A stretch of DNA of 64,000 bases, taken from Anaerobaca lacustris (GTDB taxonomy: Bacteria > Planctomycetota > Phycisphaerae > Sedimentisphaerales > Anaerobacaceae). The notes beneath the pieces are model-generated. The model saw only the letters and a program-made list of their open reading frames with translations. It searched no databases and was not told the origin of the DNA. The stretch is taken from NCBI RefSeq assembly GCF_030012215.1, contig NZ_JASCXX010000019.1, positions 1 to 64,000 on the forward strand, in the 5' to 3' direction. This document shows, in pieces, positions 32,183 through 55,706 of this stretch (positions are counted from its first letter, which is position 1; each line of letters opens with the position of its first letter). The position numbers and the translations under genes were made by a program.

Positions 32183-33094
32183 CTACCAGTCTCTTTCGAC
32201 CTTCTGGGTCTGCGTCCTTTGGCGAATCTGTCGCTGCTCTTTCTGCCGCTGCTCCTTGTCGAGGATCTCCTGGGCGGTCGTGTCCGGCGCCGTCTGCTGC
32301 TGGGCCTGTTGCTCATCGGGGCCCTGGGCCTGCTGCTGTTGGTCGGCCGGTTCCTGCTGGTCGTCCTGATTCGGGTCGGCCCCTTGCTGCGATTGATCTT
32401 CCTCCTGCGACTCGTTCGGGTCCTGCGGCTGCGATTGCGCCTGCTGTTGCTGGTCCTGCTCCTGTGGGTCCCCCTGCTCGTCCTGCTGCTGCTGTTGCTG
32501 CTGTTGTTGCTCCTCCTCCTGTTGTTGCTGTTGCTTGATCTGGTCGAGGATGTCCTTGATCGTCAGCCGGGCAACCTCGATGTTCCGGGCGGCCTTCTCG
32601 TTCTGCGGATCGATCTCCAGTACGCCTCGCCAGTACGTGATGCTCGTCTCCATGTCTTCCAGGGCCTTCTGGAGGTTGGAATCGCGCTGCTTGGCGCCCC
32701 GCTGGAAGAAGCTGTTGCCCAGGTTGTACTTGGCCTTGCTCACCAGCGTCATGTCCTTGCTCTCGGCGGCAACCTGGCGGTACAGATCGATCGCGCGGCC
32801 CAGGTCGTCCAGCCGATAGTAGCTGTTGGCCTTGTTGAACTTCGGCTCGACCGCCGCCGGCTGCTCGATCTCGGCCTCGTTGTACTTGTTGATCGCCTCG
32901 GAGTACTGCCCGTCGGCATAAAGCTGATTGCCCTGCCGGACCGCATCCCGCGCAGAGGCCCCCTGCGCCGCCGTCATCGCTGCCAGCAGCAGGAACACCG
33001 CTGTCAATGAGGTCCGCAAGGGCGAGGCATGCCTCGCCCCTACCGACGAATGCCTTACGGCGTCGCTACACACTGGGCGCTTTCTTGCGTTCAC
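32183..33094 (-). CDS. batC: BatC-like TPR protein with Gln-rich tail, carrying a repeat at its start
   Basis: The 303-residue frame has a signal-like segment (LTAVFLLLAAMTAAQG), three TPR-like hairpins (ARDAVRQGNQLYADGQYSEA, ANSYYRLDDLGRAIDLYRQV) and a very Gln/Glu/Pro-rich tail (about 190-285). The first 25 codons come from a dispersed repeat, reading SSVGARHASP. The GTG at 33094 overlaps the previous gene by 29 bases; a TTG at 33019, right after the repeat, would give a normal signal peptide and may be the original start. BatC proteins are accessory parts of Bat loci. Confidence 0.8.
   Translation of the reverse strand: MNARKRPVCSDAVRHSSVGARHASPLRTSLTAVFLLLAAMTAAQGASARDAVRQGNQLYADGQYSEAINKYNEAEIEQPAAVEPKFNKANSYYRLDDLGRAIDLYRQVAAESKDMTLVSKAKYNLGNSFFQRGAKQRDSNLQKALEDMETSITYWRGVLEIDPQNEKAARNIEVARLTIKDILDQIKQQQQQEEEQQQQQQQQQDEQGDPQEQDQQQQAQSQPQDPNESQEEDQSQQGADPNQDDQQEPADQQQQAQGPDEQQAQQQTAPDTTAQEILDKEQRQKEQRQIRQRTQTQKVERDW
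33020..33075. repeat. Dispersed palindrome copy across the batB/batC junction
   Basis: GGGCGAGGCATGCCTCGCCC (33020-33039) is a perfect 20-base palindrome, followed by CTACC and by a TTACGGCGTCGCTACACAC part like the element at 55640-55706. The batB stop codon TAG lies in the element. On the minus strand the palindrome is read as VGARHASP in the batC frame, the same frame as the insertions in the GntP and Clp N-domain genes. Confidence 0.75.
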
Positions 33095-39846: not shown

Positions 39847-39930
39847 GTAGGGGCGAATGATTATTCGCCCCCTTCGCAGTGTGCTCGCACGAGCATCCGG
39901 AGGTACGGGCGAGGGGAGCCTGGCCCTTGG
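39847..39930. repeat. Dispersed palindrome GTAGGGGCGAAT..ATTCGCCC with tail
   Basis: GTAGGGGCGAATgattATTCGCCC has an eight-base stem. It is followed by CTTCGCAGTGTGCTCGCACG and then GGCGAGGGGAGCCTGGCCC, the same order of parts as at 51648, 52288 and 55618. The element is about 85 bases long in its complete form. Confidence 0.75.
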
Positions 39931-48324: not shown

Positions 48325-49689
48325 CTACAAAACGATCGCGCCGACGATCCAGACGGTTCCGGCGGCGACAAGACCTTGAACCAGAGTCCCGAACGTCTGG
48401 AGCTTGTAGCCCTGCCTGACCGTCATCTTACAGAGCTGGGTAACAATCCAGAAGTAGCTGTCGTTGACGTGGCTGACAACCATCGAGCCGGCGCCGATGG
48501 CCACGACGGCCAGGGCCCTGCCGGTGGGCGTTGCCAAGCCGAGTGGTTCGAGCATCGGTGCGGCGATCCCGGCAGTCGTGATCATCGCGACGGTCGAGGA
48601 GCCCTGGGCGCTCTTGATCGCGGCGGCCAGCACGAAGGGAAGCCAGAGGCCCCAGGAACCCGCGCCGTCGCCCAGAAGCTGCGAGACGACCGTAGCGATG
48701 TTTGACTCCCGCAGCACCTTGCCGAAGGCGCCGCCGCAGCCGGTGATGATGAGAATCGTCGCCGCGCCCAGCACCGCCTCACCCACCCAGCCGGATGCGG
48801 AGAGCATCTCTCTCGTCAGCCTGGCCGGCAGCAGGAACGCGAGGAACACGCCGATCAGCAGCGCGACAACCGGCTGGCCGGTGAAATCGATCACGCTGAC
48901 AATCCAGCCTTCGCCCAATGGATAGCTCGGAAGACGGCATACCGACCGCAGCAGGATCAGCACGATCGGCACGAGGATCGGGGCCAGCGACCGCGCCACC
49001 GACGGACCGTCGGACGCCGAATCCGTTGCCGCCGAGAGGACGGGCGAATAATCATTCGCCCCTACTTCATCGGACGGCAGCTTGACTCGTGCGGCGATCT
49101 TCACGCTGAACAGCCACGAGACCAGCAGCGCCGGAACGCTGACGATCAAACCAAAGAGGATCACCCGCCCGAGGTCGGCTTCCAACATGCCGGCGGCCGC
49201 CACGGGACCGGGTGTCGGCGGGACCATTGTATGCGTGGCATAAAGGCCGAGGCTCAAGGCCATCGCCCCGGCCGCCAGCGGGACCCGTGCCTTCGAGGAG
49301 AGCGAACGGGCCAGAGGCGCAAGGAGGATGAACCCCGAATCACAGAAGACGGGGATGCTGACGATGTATCCGATAACGCCCATCGCCAGCGGAACGCGTC
49401 GGGGGCCGACGACATCGACCGTTCGCTGGGCCAGTCGAGCGGCACCGCCGGATTTCTCCAGGAAGATGCCGATGACCGAGCCGGCCAGGATGACGATGCC
49501 AATGGCCCCCAGAGTCTCCCCGAACCCGTCATTGATCGATTTGACGACCCCGGCGAGGGACATCTGCCGACTGAGGATGCCATAGCCGAAGGCGGCGAGC
49601 AGTAGCGCCAGAAATGGATGCAGCTTCAGCCGGCTCGTGGCCAACACGATAAACGCAATCGCAACCACGAGCAGCACGATCAGCCACAT
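48325..49689 (-). CDS. GntP-family sugar-acid permease with in-frame palindrome insertion
   Basis: The protein, about 454 residues from ATG 49689 (SD GGGAGGT ten bases upstream; ATG 49707 also possible), has about twelve membrane helices and the GntP signatures GGLSAMWLIVLLVVAIAFIV at the start, GGAARLAQRTVDVVGPRRVP, THTMVPPTPGPVAAAGML and CGGAFGKVLRESN. GntP transporters import gluconate or related sugar acids with protons. A hydrophilic loop (about 215-235) contains KLPSDEVGANDYSPVLSA, where VGANDYSP is encoded by the dispersed palindrome at 49042-49065. The frame remains intact. Confidence 0.92.
   Translation of the reverse strand: MWLIVLLVVAIAFIVLATSRLKLHPFLALLLAAFGYGILSRQMSLAGVVKSINDGFGETLGAIGIVILAGSVIGIFLEKSGGAARLAQRTVDVVGPRRVPLAMGVIGYIVSIPVFCDSGFILLAPLARSLSSKARVPLAAGAMALSLGLYATHTMVPPTPGPVAAAGMLEADLGRVILFGLIVSVPALLVSWLFSVKIAARVKLPSDEVGANDYSPVLSAATDSASDGPSVARSLAPILVPIVLILLRSVCRLPSYPLGEGWIVSVIDFTGQPVVALLIGVFLAFLLPARLTREMLSASGWVGEAVLGAATILIITGCGGAFGKVLRESNIATVVSQLLGDGAGSWGLWLPFVLAAAIKSAQGSSTVAMITTAGIAAPMLEPLGLATPTGRALAVVAIGAGSMVVSHVNDSYFWIVTQLCKMTVRQGYKLQTFGTLVQGLVAAGTVWIVGAIVL
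49042..49065. repeat. Dispersed palindrome inside the GntP permease gene
   Basis: GGGCGAATAATCATTCGCCC followed by CTAC. On the coding strand it reads GTA GGG GCG AAT GAT TAT, that is Val-Gly-Ala-Asn-Asp-Tyr, then Ser-Pro. Length and frame keep the gene open. The loop is between predicted membrane helices. Confidence 0.85.
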
Positions 49690-51312: not shown

Positions 51313-51660
51313 ATGCAAGTTCCACTACAGGTTTCGTTCAAGAGTATCCCCCACACCGCCGCAATCGAGGGGTTAATCCGACGCAAAGCCGACAAGCTTG
51401 AGAGGGTCTGCGACCATCTGTCGAGCTGTCGCGTGGCCGTCGAGAGGCCCCAGAAACGCCCGGAGGACGGCAATCCCTACCGCGTACGGATTGATATGAC
51501 CGTCCCGCCGGGACATGAGGTGGTGGTAAAAAACGAGCCGGGGAAGGGTAAGACCCACGACGGGCTCGACGTAGTCATCCGGGACGCCTTCGACACCGCC
51601 TCACGCCGGCTGAGAAAGCTCGTTGCGTTGCAGCAGGGCAGACGCAGGGGCGCATCATGA
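51313..51660 (+). CDS. hpf: Ribosome hibernation promoting factor (HPF/RaiA family)
   Basis: The 115-residue protein starts at ATG 51313 seven bases after GGAGG. MQVPLQVSFKSIPHTAAIEG and RIDMTVPPGHEVVVKNEP match the single-domain HPF/YfiA fold that binds the 30S decoding region and silences ribosomes. It lacks the C-terminal dimerisation domain of long HPF. The stop codon TGA comes from a dispersed palindrome (51648-51667) that has replaced the last codons, giving the tail GRRRGAS. Confidence 0.85.
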   Translation: MQVPLQVSFKSIPHTAAIEGLIRRKADKLERVCDHLSSCRVAVERPQKRPEDGNPYRVRIDMTVPPGHEVVVKNEPGKGKTHDGLDVVIRDAFDTASRRLRKLVALQQGRRRGAS

Positions 51661-51721
51661 TTCGCCCGTAGCGTCCTCGTAGGAGTATGCCGACATAGGG
51701 CGAGGCATGCCTGGCCCCTAC
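51648..51721. repeat. Dispersed palindrome supplying the hpf stop codon, plus second palindrome
   Basis: GGGCGCATCATGATTCGCCC (51648-51667) carries the hpf stop codon TGA. A second palindrome, GGGCGAGGCATGCCTGGCCC (51699-51718), follows and touches the stop of the gene on the other strand. The order of parts is the same as at 52288-52364. Confidence 0.78.
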
Positions 51722-52287: not shown

Positions 52288-52364
52288 GGGGGCAAATGAT
52301 GATTCGCCCCACTCGTAGCGCGCTCGTAAGAGCACAAAAAGTAGGGGCGAGGCATGCCTCGCCC
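52288..52364. repeat. Two dispersed palindromes between divergent genes
   Basis: GTAGGGGGCAAATGATGATT with CGCCCC, a CTCGTAGCGCGCTCGTAAGA part, and a second palindrome GGGCGAGGCATGCCTCGCCC (52345-52364) form the complete composite element also seen at 51648 and 55618. Confidence 0.78.
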
Positions 52365-52488
52365 TTCCCAACGGGCGGCCCCGATCCCGATACATATCGG
52401 AATGGCGCTGCACTCGCCCCCATTATGAGCGAGCCGACCCAGACAGGCAAGACCAAGACTCCGTAAGTGGTAAAGAACAGAGGCTTGG

Positions 52489-55051: not shown

Positions 55052-55546
55052 CTATTCGATTGGACCGACCGCGCCGTTGTGGATCGCCGGCGAGAGCCTC
55101 CCCACCTGCTCGCGCACCGCATCGATGCGCAGCCCCAGGTTGGTCAGGACCTTGGCCGAGATGGCTTTGCCGTCGCGCATCAGGCCCAGCAGCAGGTGCT
55201 CGGTGCCGACGTAGTTGTGGTGCAGCGACCGCGCCTCCTCCACTGCGTAGCGAATGACGTTCTTGGTGTGCTCGGTCTGGGCGAGCTTCTCGGTGGCCTC
55301 GACGTGAGGGCGACCTTCGAGAAGTGTTTCGACCTCTTTGCGAAGGGGCTTGAGATCGACGTTGAAGTGTTCGAGCACAGCCGCGGCCACGCCTGGTACG
55401 GGCGAATCATGATTCGCCCCTACTTTGGCCAGACCCCAGAGAATGTGTTCGGTGCCGATAAACTCGTGCCCGAACTGCTGGGCCTCCTGATTGGCCAATG
55501 ACATGACCTCCCTCGCGTGCTCGGTGAATCGCTCGAACATGTGCAT
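55052..55546 (-). CDS. Stand-alone Clp N-domain protein with in-frame palindrome insertion
   Basis: The 164-residue protein has two Clp N repeats: FGHEFIGTEHILWGLAKV and LHHNYVGTEHLLLGLMRDG, the signature of ClpA/ClpC adaptor domains. No AAA+ domain follows, so it is a free-standing adaptor-like protein. In the first repeat the usual ILxGLxKEGxGVAAxVL core is broken after GLAK by VGANHDSPVP, encoded by the palindrome at 55397-55423. The second repeat lacks the insertion. ATG 55546 or 55540 may be the start. A role in substrate delivery to a Clp protease is inferred. Confidence 0.9.
   Translation of the reverse strand: MHMFERFTEHAREVMSLANQEAQQFGHEFIGTEHILWGLAKVGANHDSPVPGVAAAVLEHFNVDLKPLRKEVETLLEGRPHVEATEKLAQTEHTKNVIRYAVEEARSLHHNYVGTEHLLLGLMRDGKAISAKVLTNLGLRIDAVREQVGRLSPAIHNGAVGPIE
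55397..55423. repeat. Dispersed palindrome inside the Clp N-domain gene
   Basis: GGGCGAATCATGATTCGCCC is a perfect 20-base palindrome (55400-55419) with GTA on one flank and CTAC on the other. Read on the coding strand it gives Val-Gly-Ala-Asn-His-Asp-Ser-Pro. It splits a conserved helix-loop in the first Clp N repeat without loss of frame. Confidence 0.88.
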
Positions 55547-55617: not shown

Positions 55618-55706
55618 GTAGGGGCGGATGATTATTCGCCCGGTTCGTAGTGTGCTCGCAAGAGCATACAGACATTAGCGTCTTACGACGCCACTACGAA
55701 CGAGCC
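55618..55706. repeat. Complete composite dispersed element
   Basis: GTAGGGGCGGATGATTATTC with GCCC begins the element. Then GGTTCGTAGTG pairs with CACTACGAAC at the other end, enclosing TGCTCGCAAGAGCATACAGA and CATTAGCGTCTTACGACG. The inverted ends suggest a folded RNA or a mobile miniature element. Parts of it recur at 8422, 10733, 33040, 39860, 51140 and 52305. Confidence 0.78.

Follow-up and report, generated by a model that had tools for sequence, protein, structure and literature searches.

In the window, the 64,000-nt stretch of genome G000 that was analysed, a stand-alone gene on the minus strand encodes a protein with two Clp_N repeats, starting either with the ATG at 55546 or with Met3 at 55540. 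A short palindromic element of the GTAG REP kind lies in frame within its first repeat, and related copies occur elsewhere in the window:

55052–55546, minus strand: host gene, stand-alone, two Clp_N repeats, 164 aa (PF02861, E=3.2e-30)
55396–55423, minus strand: GTAG double-foot REP, 28 nt, coding strand GTAGGGGCGAATCATGATTCGCCCGTAC, absent from the orthologues in 7 genomes
55394–55423, minus strand: ten codons VGANHDSPVP (residues 42–51), replacing EVQ of the sister species in the eight-genome DNA alignment
49038–49065, minus strand: second intragenic REP, in frame in the GntP permease gene (48325–49689, minus strand), peptide VGANDYSPVL
39847–39874, plus strand: intergenic REP, AAT subfamily
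55618–55645, plus strand: intergenic REP directly upstream of the Clp_N gene
51644–51671, plus strand: REP with an AAT-like stem (GCAGGGGCGCATCATGATTCGCCCGTAG)
51694–51721, minus strand: REP, AGG-stem subfamily
52341–52368, plus strand: REP, AGG-stem subfamily (GTAGGGGCGAGGCATGCCTCGCCC)
33016–33043, minus strand: REP, AGG-stem subfamily
903–954, no strand assigned: inverted REP dimer (REPIN/BIME-like), longer-stem subfamily

Read directly on the plus strand, positions 55396–55423 are GTAC GGGCGAATCATGATTCGCCC CTAC, a 28-nt "double-foot" palindrome with a perfect 20-nt core and 14-nt arms that pair at 93%. Three perfect 20-nt palindromes were observed in the window, as compared with 0.08 expected under a first-order Markov model, and the 24-mer GTAGGGGCGAATCATGATTCGCCC was found 9 times in the whole genome (5.73 Mb), its reversed control 0 times. 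On the coding strand of the Clp_N gene, the element opens with GTAG-GGGC, placing the GTAG tetranucleotide at one foot of the short palindrome; the feet of this double-foot copy are GTAG and GTAC, and those of many others GTAG...CTAC. Translation across the insert gives LAK-VGANHDSPVP-GVAA. The initial annotation had described a dispersed, perfect 20-base palindrome lying in frame within a conserved Clp N-domain, and the sequence, the genomic copies and the orthologues all bear this out. Its comparison was with intergenic elements of the window; the copies at, e.g., 39847–39874 and 55618–55645 are intergenic, but the one in the GntP permease gene, which is shared with G005 and missing from G002, is not.

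The REPs of the genus have GTAG at one foot, usually a CTAC-like sequence at the other, and about ten base pairs in the stem. The stem subfamilies (GAATNATNATTC, GAGGCATGCCTC, GACGCATGCGTC and GAAGCATGCTTC) all retain base pairing, and the AAT, AGG, ACG and AAG stems are each self-complementary, as dispersed copies with compensatory stem variants. The pattern GTAGGGGCN(4-24)GCCC occurs at 159 places in the genome, its reversed control at 44. The AAT core was present in 33, 17, 103, 11 and 60 copies in five of the six genomes of the genus, and a search for this core in the sixth genome and in 35 other relatives found none. We conclude that the Clp_N insert is one of the GTAG REPs associated with TnpAREP/RAYT transposases, and that it belongs to a known kind of element and not to a new class. 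Long-loop variants of the REP, bearing a second small hairpin (TCCGCCTCTGGCGGA) at the centre like a palindrome nested in a palindrome, were seen at the G001 and G005 orthologues of C16:68368 and at C17:90216 of G000. The G005 counterparts of C20:16832 and C23:44211 of G000 look like REPs that have collapsed or been deleted in part (GGGGGCCCCAC; GTGAGGGCGAGGCATGCCT), which suggests that REPs can be lost via deletion across the hairpin.

A DNA alignment of eight genomes showed that the element is missing from the Clp_N orthologues of five congeners and from those of G029 and G036, which represent other genera of the same family; since the insert is absent from all of these, its presence is a derived state. 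In the nearest orthologues, those of G005 and G001, the site reads CTGGCCAAA-GAGGTCCAA-GGTGTGG, corresponding to LAK-EVQ-GV, and the exchange of three codons for ten thus results in a net gain of 21 nt, or seven residues, relative to both. The initial annotation, which had posited an insertion and not an ancestral sequence, was correct in this respect, as the extra residues occur in 0/5 congeners and in neither G029 nor G036; its count of ten extra residues has to be reduced to seven, because VGANHDSPVP stands for EVQ. The gap that it expected in homologues is accordingly present at a length of seven, and a 7-residue gap was also found in the solved ClpC N-domains, between GTEHIL and GVAA of repeat 1 (42 distinct PDB sequences matched, the gap being read from the two best alignments). 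We take these two segments to be helices, and the new residues would sit between them as a surface loop. An AlphaFold model of the protein, built from the single sequence, had a pLDDT of 47.7, and only two relatives, both from viral contigs, were found for modelling.

The manner in which REPs arrive was examined in ten filled/empty pairs, in which the element is present in one sister genome only and the junction can be located by projecting the flanks. The empty-site lengths replaced by the 28-nt element were 7, 13, 28, 16, 7, 19, 5, 37, 49 and 10 nt. With a 28-nt unit, a clean insertion with zero target loss was found in none of the ten pairs, and with a 20-nt unit some of the losses are about zero. 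Among the coding pairs, 7 nt were displaced in the Clp_N gene, 13 in QueA, 28 in a gene for an M56-peptidase/Clp_N protein and 16 in a sulfatase gene, and in those of G005, 19 at C121:26205, 37 at C144:65298, 49 at C158:52260 and 10 at C80:103763. The change in length was a multiple of three in all eight pairs inside called genes (8/8). A further coding candidate, C16:37331 of G005, has a very long difference (110 nt) and no length change by a multiple of three; it is not counted among the ten pairs. Elements of the IS200/IS605 family (IS608) insert precisely beside a fixed tetranucleotide without target loss, whereas 5–49 nt were displaced in the ten pairs under the 28-nt unit. At the Clp_N site itself, GGACCTC on the plus strand (7 nt) is missing if the unit is 28 nt, and three bases if it is 24 nt; under the 28-nt definition, the event reads as a replacement and not as a clean insertion.

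The targets themselves provide additional indications. In three pairs out of the ten, namely C9:151596, C158:52260 and C9:167418 (the right flank of the last having diverged over 12 nt), the empty site already has CTAC at the exact position of the CTAC (GTAG) foot of the filled site. Random segments gave foot matches in 0.065 pairs, and three were reached in 0/20,000 simulations, figures to be read in the light of a test picked after the data were seen, with few pairs and with outgroup polarisation for some of them only. Both flanks of 53 elements of G000 could be found in the G005 sample; a REP with the same stem occupied the site in 23 of these and a REP with another stem in 7, while the remaining 23 held no standard 20-nt REP, some having decayed or long-loop variants. 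C5:42498 is an inverted REP dimer in G000, a single REP in G001 and G005, and empty in G002. This REP-against-REP pattern fits a patch-like replacement, and the smallest losses can also be explained by a shorter unit with later changes.

One possible explanation, about which we are somewhat doubtful, is that a hairpin of 20–24 nt inserted cleanly and that the missing target reflects ordinary divergence or later deletions that restored the frame. If the unit is 20 nt long, the losses at the lower end (5, 7 and 7 nt) shrink to about zero, compensating deletions in genes would be favoured by selection, and the sister genomes, separated by a dS of 0.19, are old enough to have acquired extra changes. 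However, 10–49 nt were lost in seven of the ten pairs, and at C9:151596 the REP substitutes an ancestral sequence common to three sister genomes, leaving the length unchanged. These comparisons point to replacement over insertion. We tentatively put forward the hypothesis that REPs overwrite 5–49 nt of target as a single-stranded patch, often with the GTAG foot on a pre-existing GTAG, and that older REPs with other stems are overwritten as well; on the present evidence, this is a serious possibility.

The sampled regions, which amount to 1.245 Mb in G000 and 0.975 Mb in G005, contained 113 and 74 elements, of which 26 and 20, respectively, lay wholly inside called genes in G000 and inside genes in G005, giving dozens of in-frame intragenic copies; these counts come from regions picked mostly around known elements and not from a random sample, and, since genes were called with a simple hexamer model, the in-frame status is partly built into the method and is no independent test. 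Coding DNA made up about 84–85% of both samples, so that genes are depleted in REPs, a pattern to be expected if most REPs that enter genes do not persist. The host genes encode a HisC-like aminotransferase (VGAKHLSP), ThiG (VGARHASP), a ThiF-family protein, QueA, a Tat-signal sulfatase, an MTHFR-like protein, a GntP permease and the large M56-peptidase/Clp_N protein, and peptides resembling VGA[NR]xxSP, the pattern for which the initial annotation had recommended a search, are present in unrelated proteins. The large protein (C9:148623-154439 of G000, 1938 aa) combines an M56 peptidase, two Clp_N repeats and an AhpC/TSA domain, and its length-neutral REP, C9:151596, adjoins the Clp_N repeats.

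Which peptide appears is determined by the DNA sequence, since the GTAG foot together with the usual AAT stems puts stops in the two other frames; VGAN(H/D)DSP and close variants result from the REP DNA itself, and no function of the insert is needed to explain them. Outside the insert, the Clp_N gene, when compared with G005, shows a dS of 0.193 and a dN of 0.009 (ratio 0.045), and is under strong purifying selection. This selection, and the presence of a REP in a second Clp_N-containing gene of the genome (C9:151596), would be compatible with an insert recruited to alter substrate or partner binding by the protein. We nevertheless regard such a role as improbable, because peptides of these types are found in many proteins unrelated to each other, as the DNA alone predicts, and because the Clp_N insert is present in one genome only. 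It is still less probable that the gene is dead or its frame an artefact, which would make the in-frame fit meaningless: stand-alone Clp_N genes are accessory genes, but this one has an open frame, two recognised repeats and orthologues in five of five congeners, and with its conservation outside the insert it is most likely alive. That the residues are ancestral and were lost in the relatives is hardly credible and is ruled out by the seven empty orthologues, two of them from other genera, which share the short form with the solved ClpC N-domains, even though partly deleted REPs exist elsewhere in G005 (C23:44211 and C20:16832).

A REPtron is present in G000. The TnpAREP-like gene C7:13108-13680 encodes the HUH motif MPNHVHG and matches NF047646, the model for REP-associated tyrosine transposases, with E=1.8e-14, at 53.8 bits, below the curated cut-off of 80. 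REPs of the family described above lie on both sides of the gene (C7 13076, 13700, 13888 and 13943), and another, C7:13383, sits in frame inside it, directly after MPNHVHG. Judged by its double-foot REPs, flanking REPs and in-frame REP, this locus appears to be a matching REPtron with the traits of TnpAREP subclass 2.4, for which in-frame REPs within tnpAREP genes have been published (Quentin et al. 2018, PMC6006769), and it is the likely source of the Clp_N insert. Homologues of the C7 protein were examined at 80 loci from many phyla; of the 63 that could be read, 49 have a GTAG REP within the gene, mostly directly after the HUH motif. Such in-frame REPs near the HUH motif were seen in Chloroflexi, Nitrospirae, Thermus, Cyanobacteria, Proteobacteria and others; flanking REPs, where present, often have the same stem as the in-gene REP, and the peptide of the latter tracks the stem (VGARHASPL, VGAGFKPAPT, RGGSRTAPT). 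Other Y1 transposases of the genus were rejected as the REP source, the flanks of the PF01797 matches checked being free of such REPs up to 1.5 kb.

The valyl-tRNA synthetase gene (valS; C13:125097-128741 of G000, minus strand) is a single 1214-aa frame enclosing a complete TnpAREP-like protein (about 235 aa), which matches NF047646 above the cut-off (E=2.7e-25). This segment has REP-like hairpins at its edges and is located just before YVTVATTRPETML. It is missing in the five congeners; at the corresponding position, G001 carries a small REP-like hairpin. Either a REPtron lies in frame within an essential gene here, or the assembly is wrong.

Taken together, these results make it very probable that a GTAG double-foot REP of the genus was joined into the Clp_N gene after mobilisation by a TnpAREP (RAYT) HUH/Y1 enzyme acting in trans. 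In this process, a REP copy would have been processed by TnpAREP, probably as single-stranded DNA, and joined at CCTTGGACCTCTTTGG on the lineage to G000, taking the place of GGACCTC with a 28-nt unit or of three bases with a 24-nt unit. Since 7 nt of target replaced by 28 give a net gain of 21 nt, the frame would have been kept, by chance, and, the position between helices being tolerant, the gene would have been kept by selection. The C7 enzyme may have performed the mobilisation by this single-strand route, and the insert itself would be neutral.

The SDR elements of Nostoc, which Elhai et al. are said to have described in 2008, are reportedly very small repeats that form hairpins, carry compensatory changes in their stems and can be nested, as here; an RNA route was reportedly proposed for them, with no link to TnpAREP. 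The IS200/IS605 family (IS608) resembles the present system in having a related HUH/Y1 enzyme and a tetranucleotide beside the hairpin that guides cleavage (background in PMC6006769). The closest parallel is TnpAREP subclass 2.4, or RAYT group 4, with its GT[AG]G foot, C[TC]AC second foot and long stem, its REPs flanking the transposase gene and lying in frame between the HuH and Y motifs, and its patchy spread over phyla; the in-frame cases there are mainly in transposase genes, whereas here the Clp_N gene is one of many hosts, and sister genomes provide empty sites (PMC6006769). In the sections of Di Nocera et al. 2013 cited here, the GTAG REP/TnpAREP system is known from many phyla including Planctomycetes, short palindromic GTAG and CGTC REPs lie in frame in unrelated genes of several phyla, and PVC bacteria such as Opitutus terrae are among the hosts of intragenic REPs (PMC3733652). 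The results reported in those sections do not include a base-level filled/empty comparison, and they emphasise DNA repair genes, which are not prominent among the host genes of the present sample (PMC3733652). The initial annotation had likened the insert to Rickettsia palindromic elements, and the likeness stands in so far as RPE-4 and RPE-6 are also dispersed palindromes lying in frame in protein genes; it does not extend to membership, as these are CGTC-tagged and, according to the same sections, CGTC REPs have no known dedicated transposase (PMC3733652). Identity with Rickettsia RPE or CGTC REPs was rejected, the feet here being GTAG and GTAC/CTAC, with an associated transposase.

The dissemination of REPs has been called unresolved (PMC8266576, PMC3116915). 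Our literature search, outside of which many journals lay, found no published base-level filled/empty comparison showing REP replacement, and the replacement pattern in the filled/empty pairs is possibly new. REPs rank with the smallest mobile DNAs known. In this genus, filled and empty sites exist in conserved genes of sister genomes, and the exchange can be followed there at single-base resolution. Most deserving of further study are the replacement pattern and the GTAG in the target: if true, overwriting would explain how REPs arrive in genes in a frame-neutral, even length-neutral, manner, and the dissemination step would gain a testable form. In this genus, a selfish hairpin repeatedly writes short peptides (VGANHDSP, VGARHASP, GDACVAPT) into unrelated proteins that are still in use.
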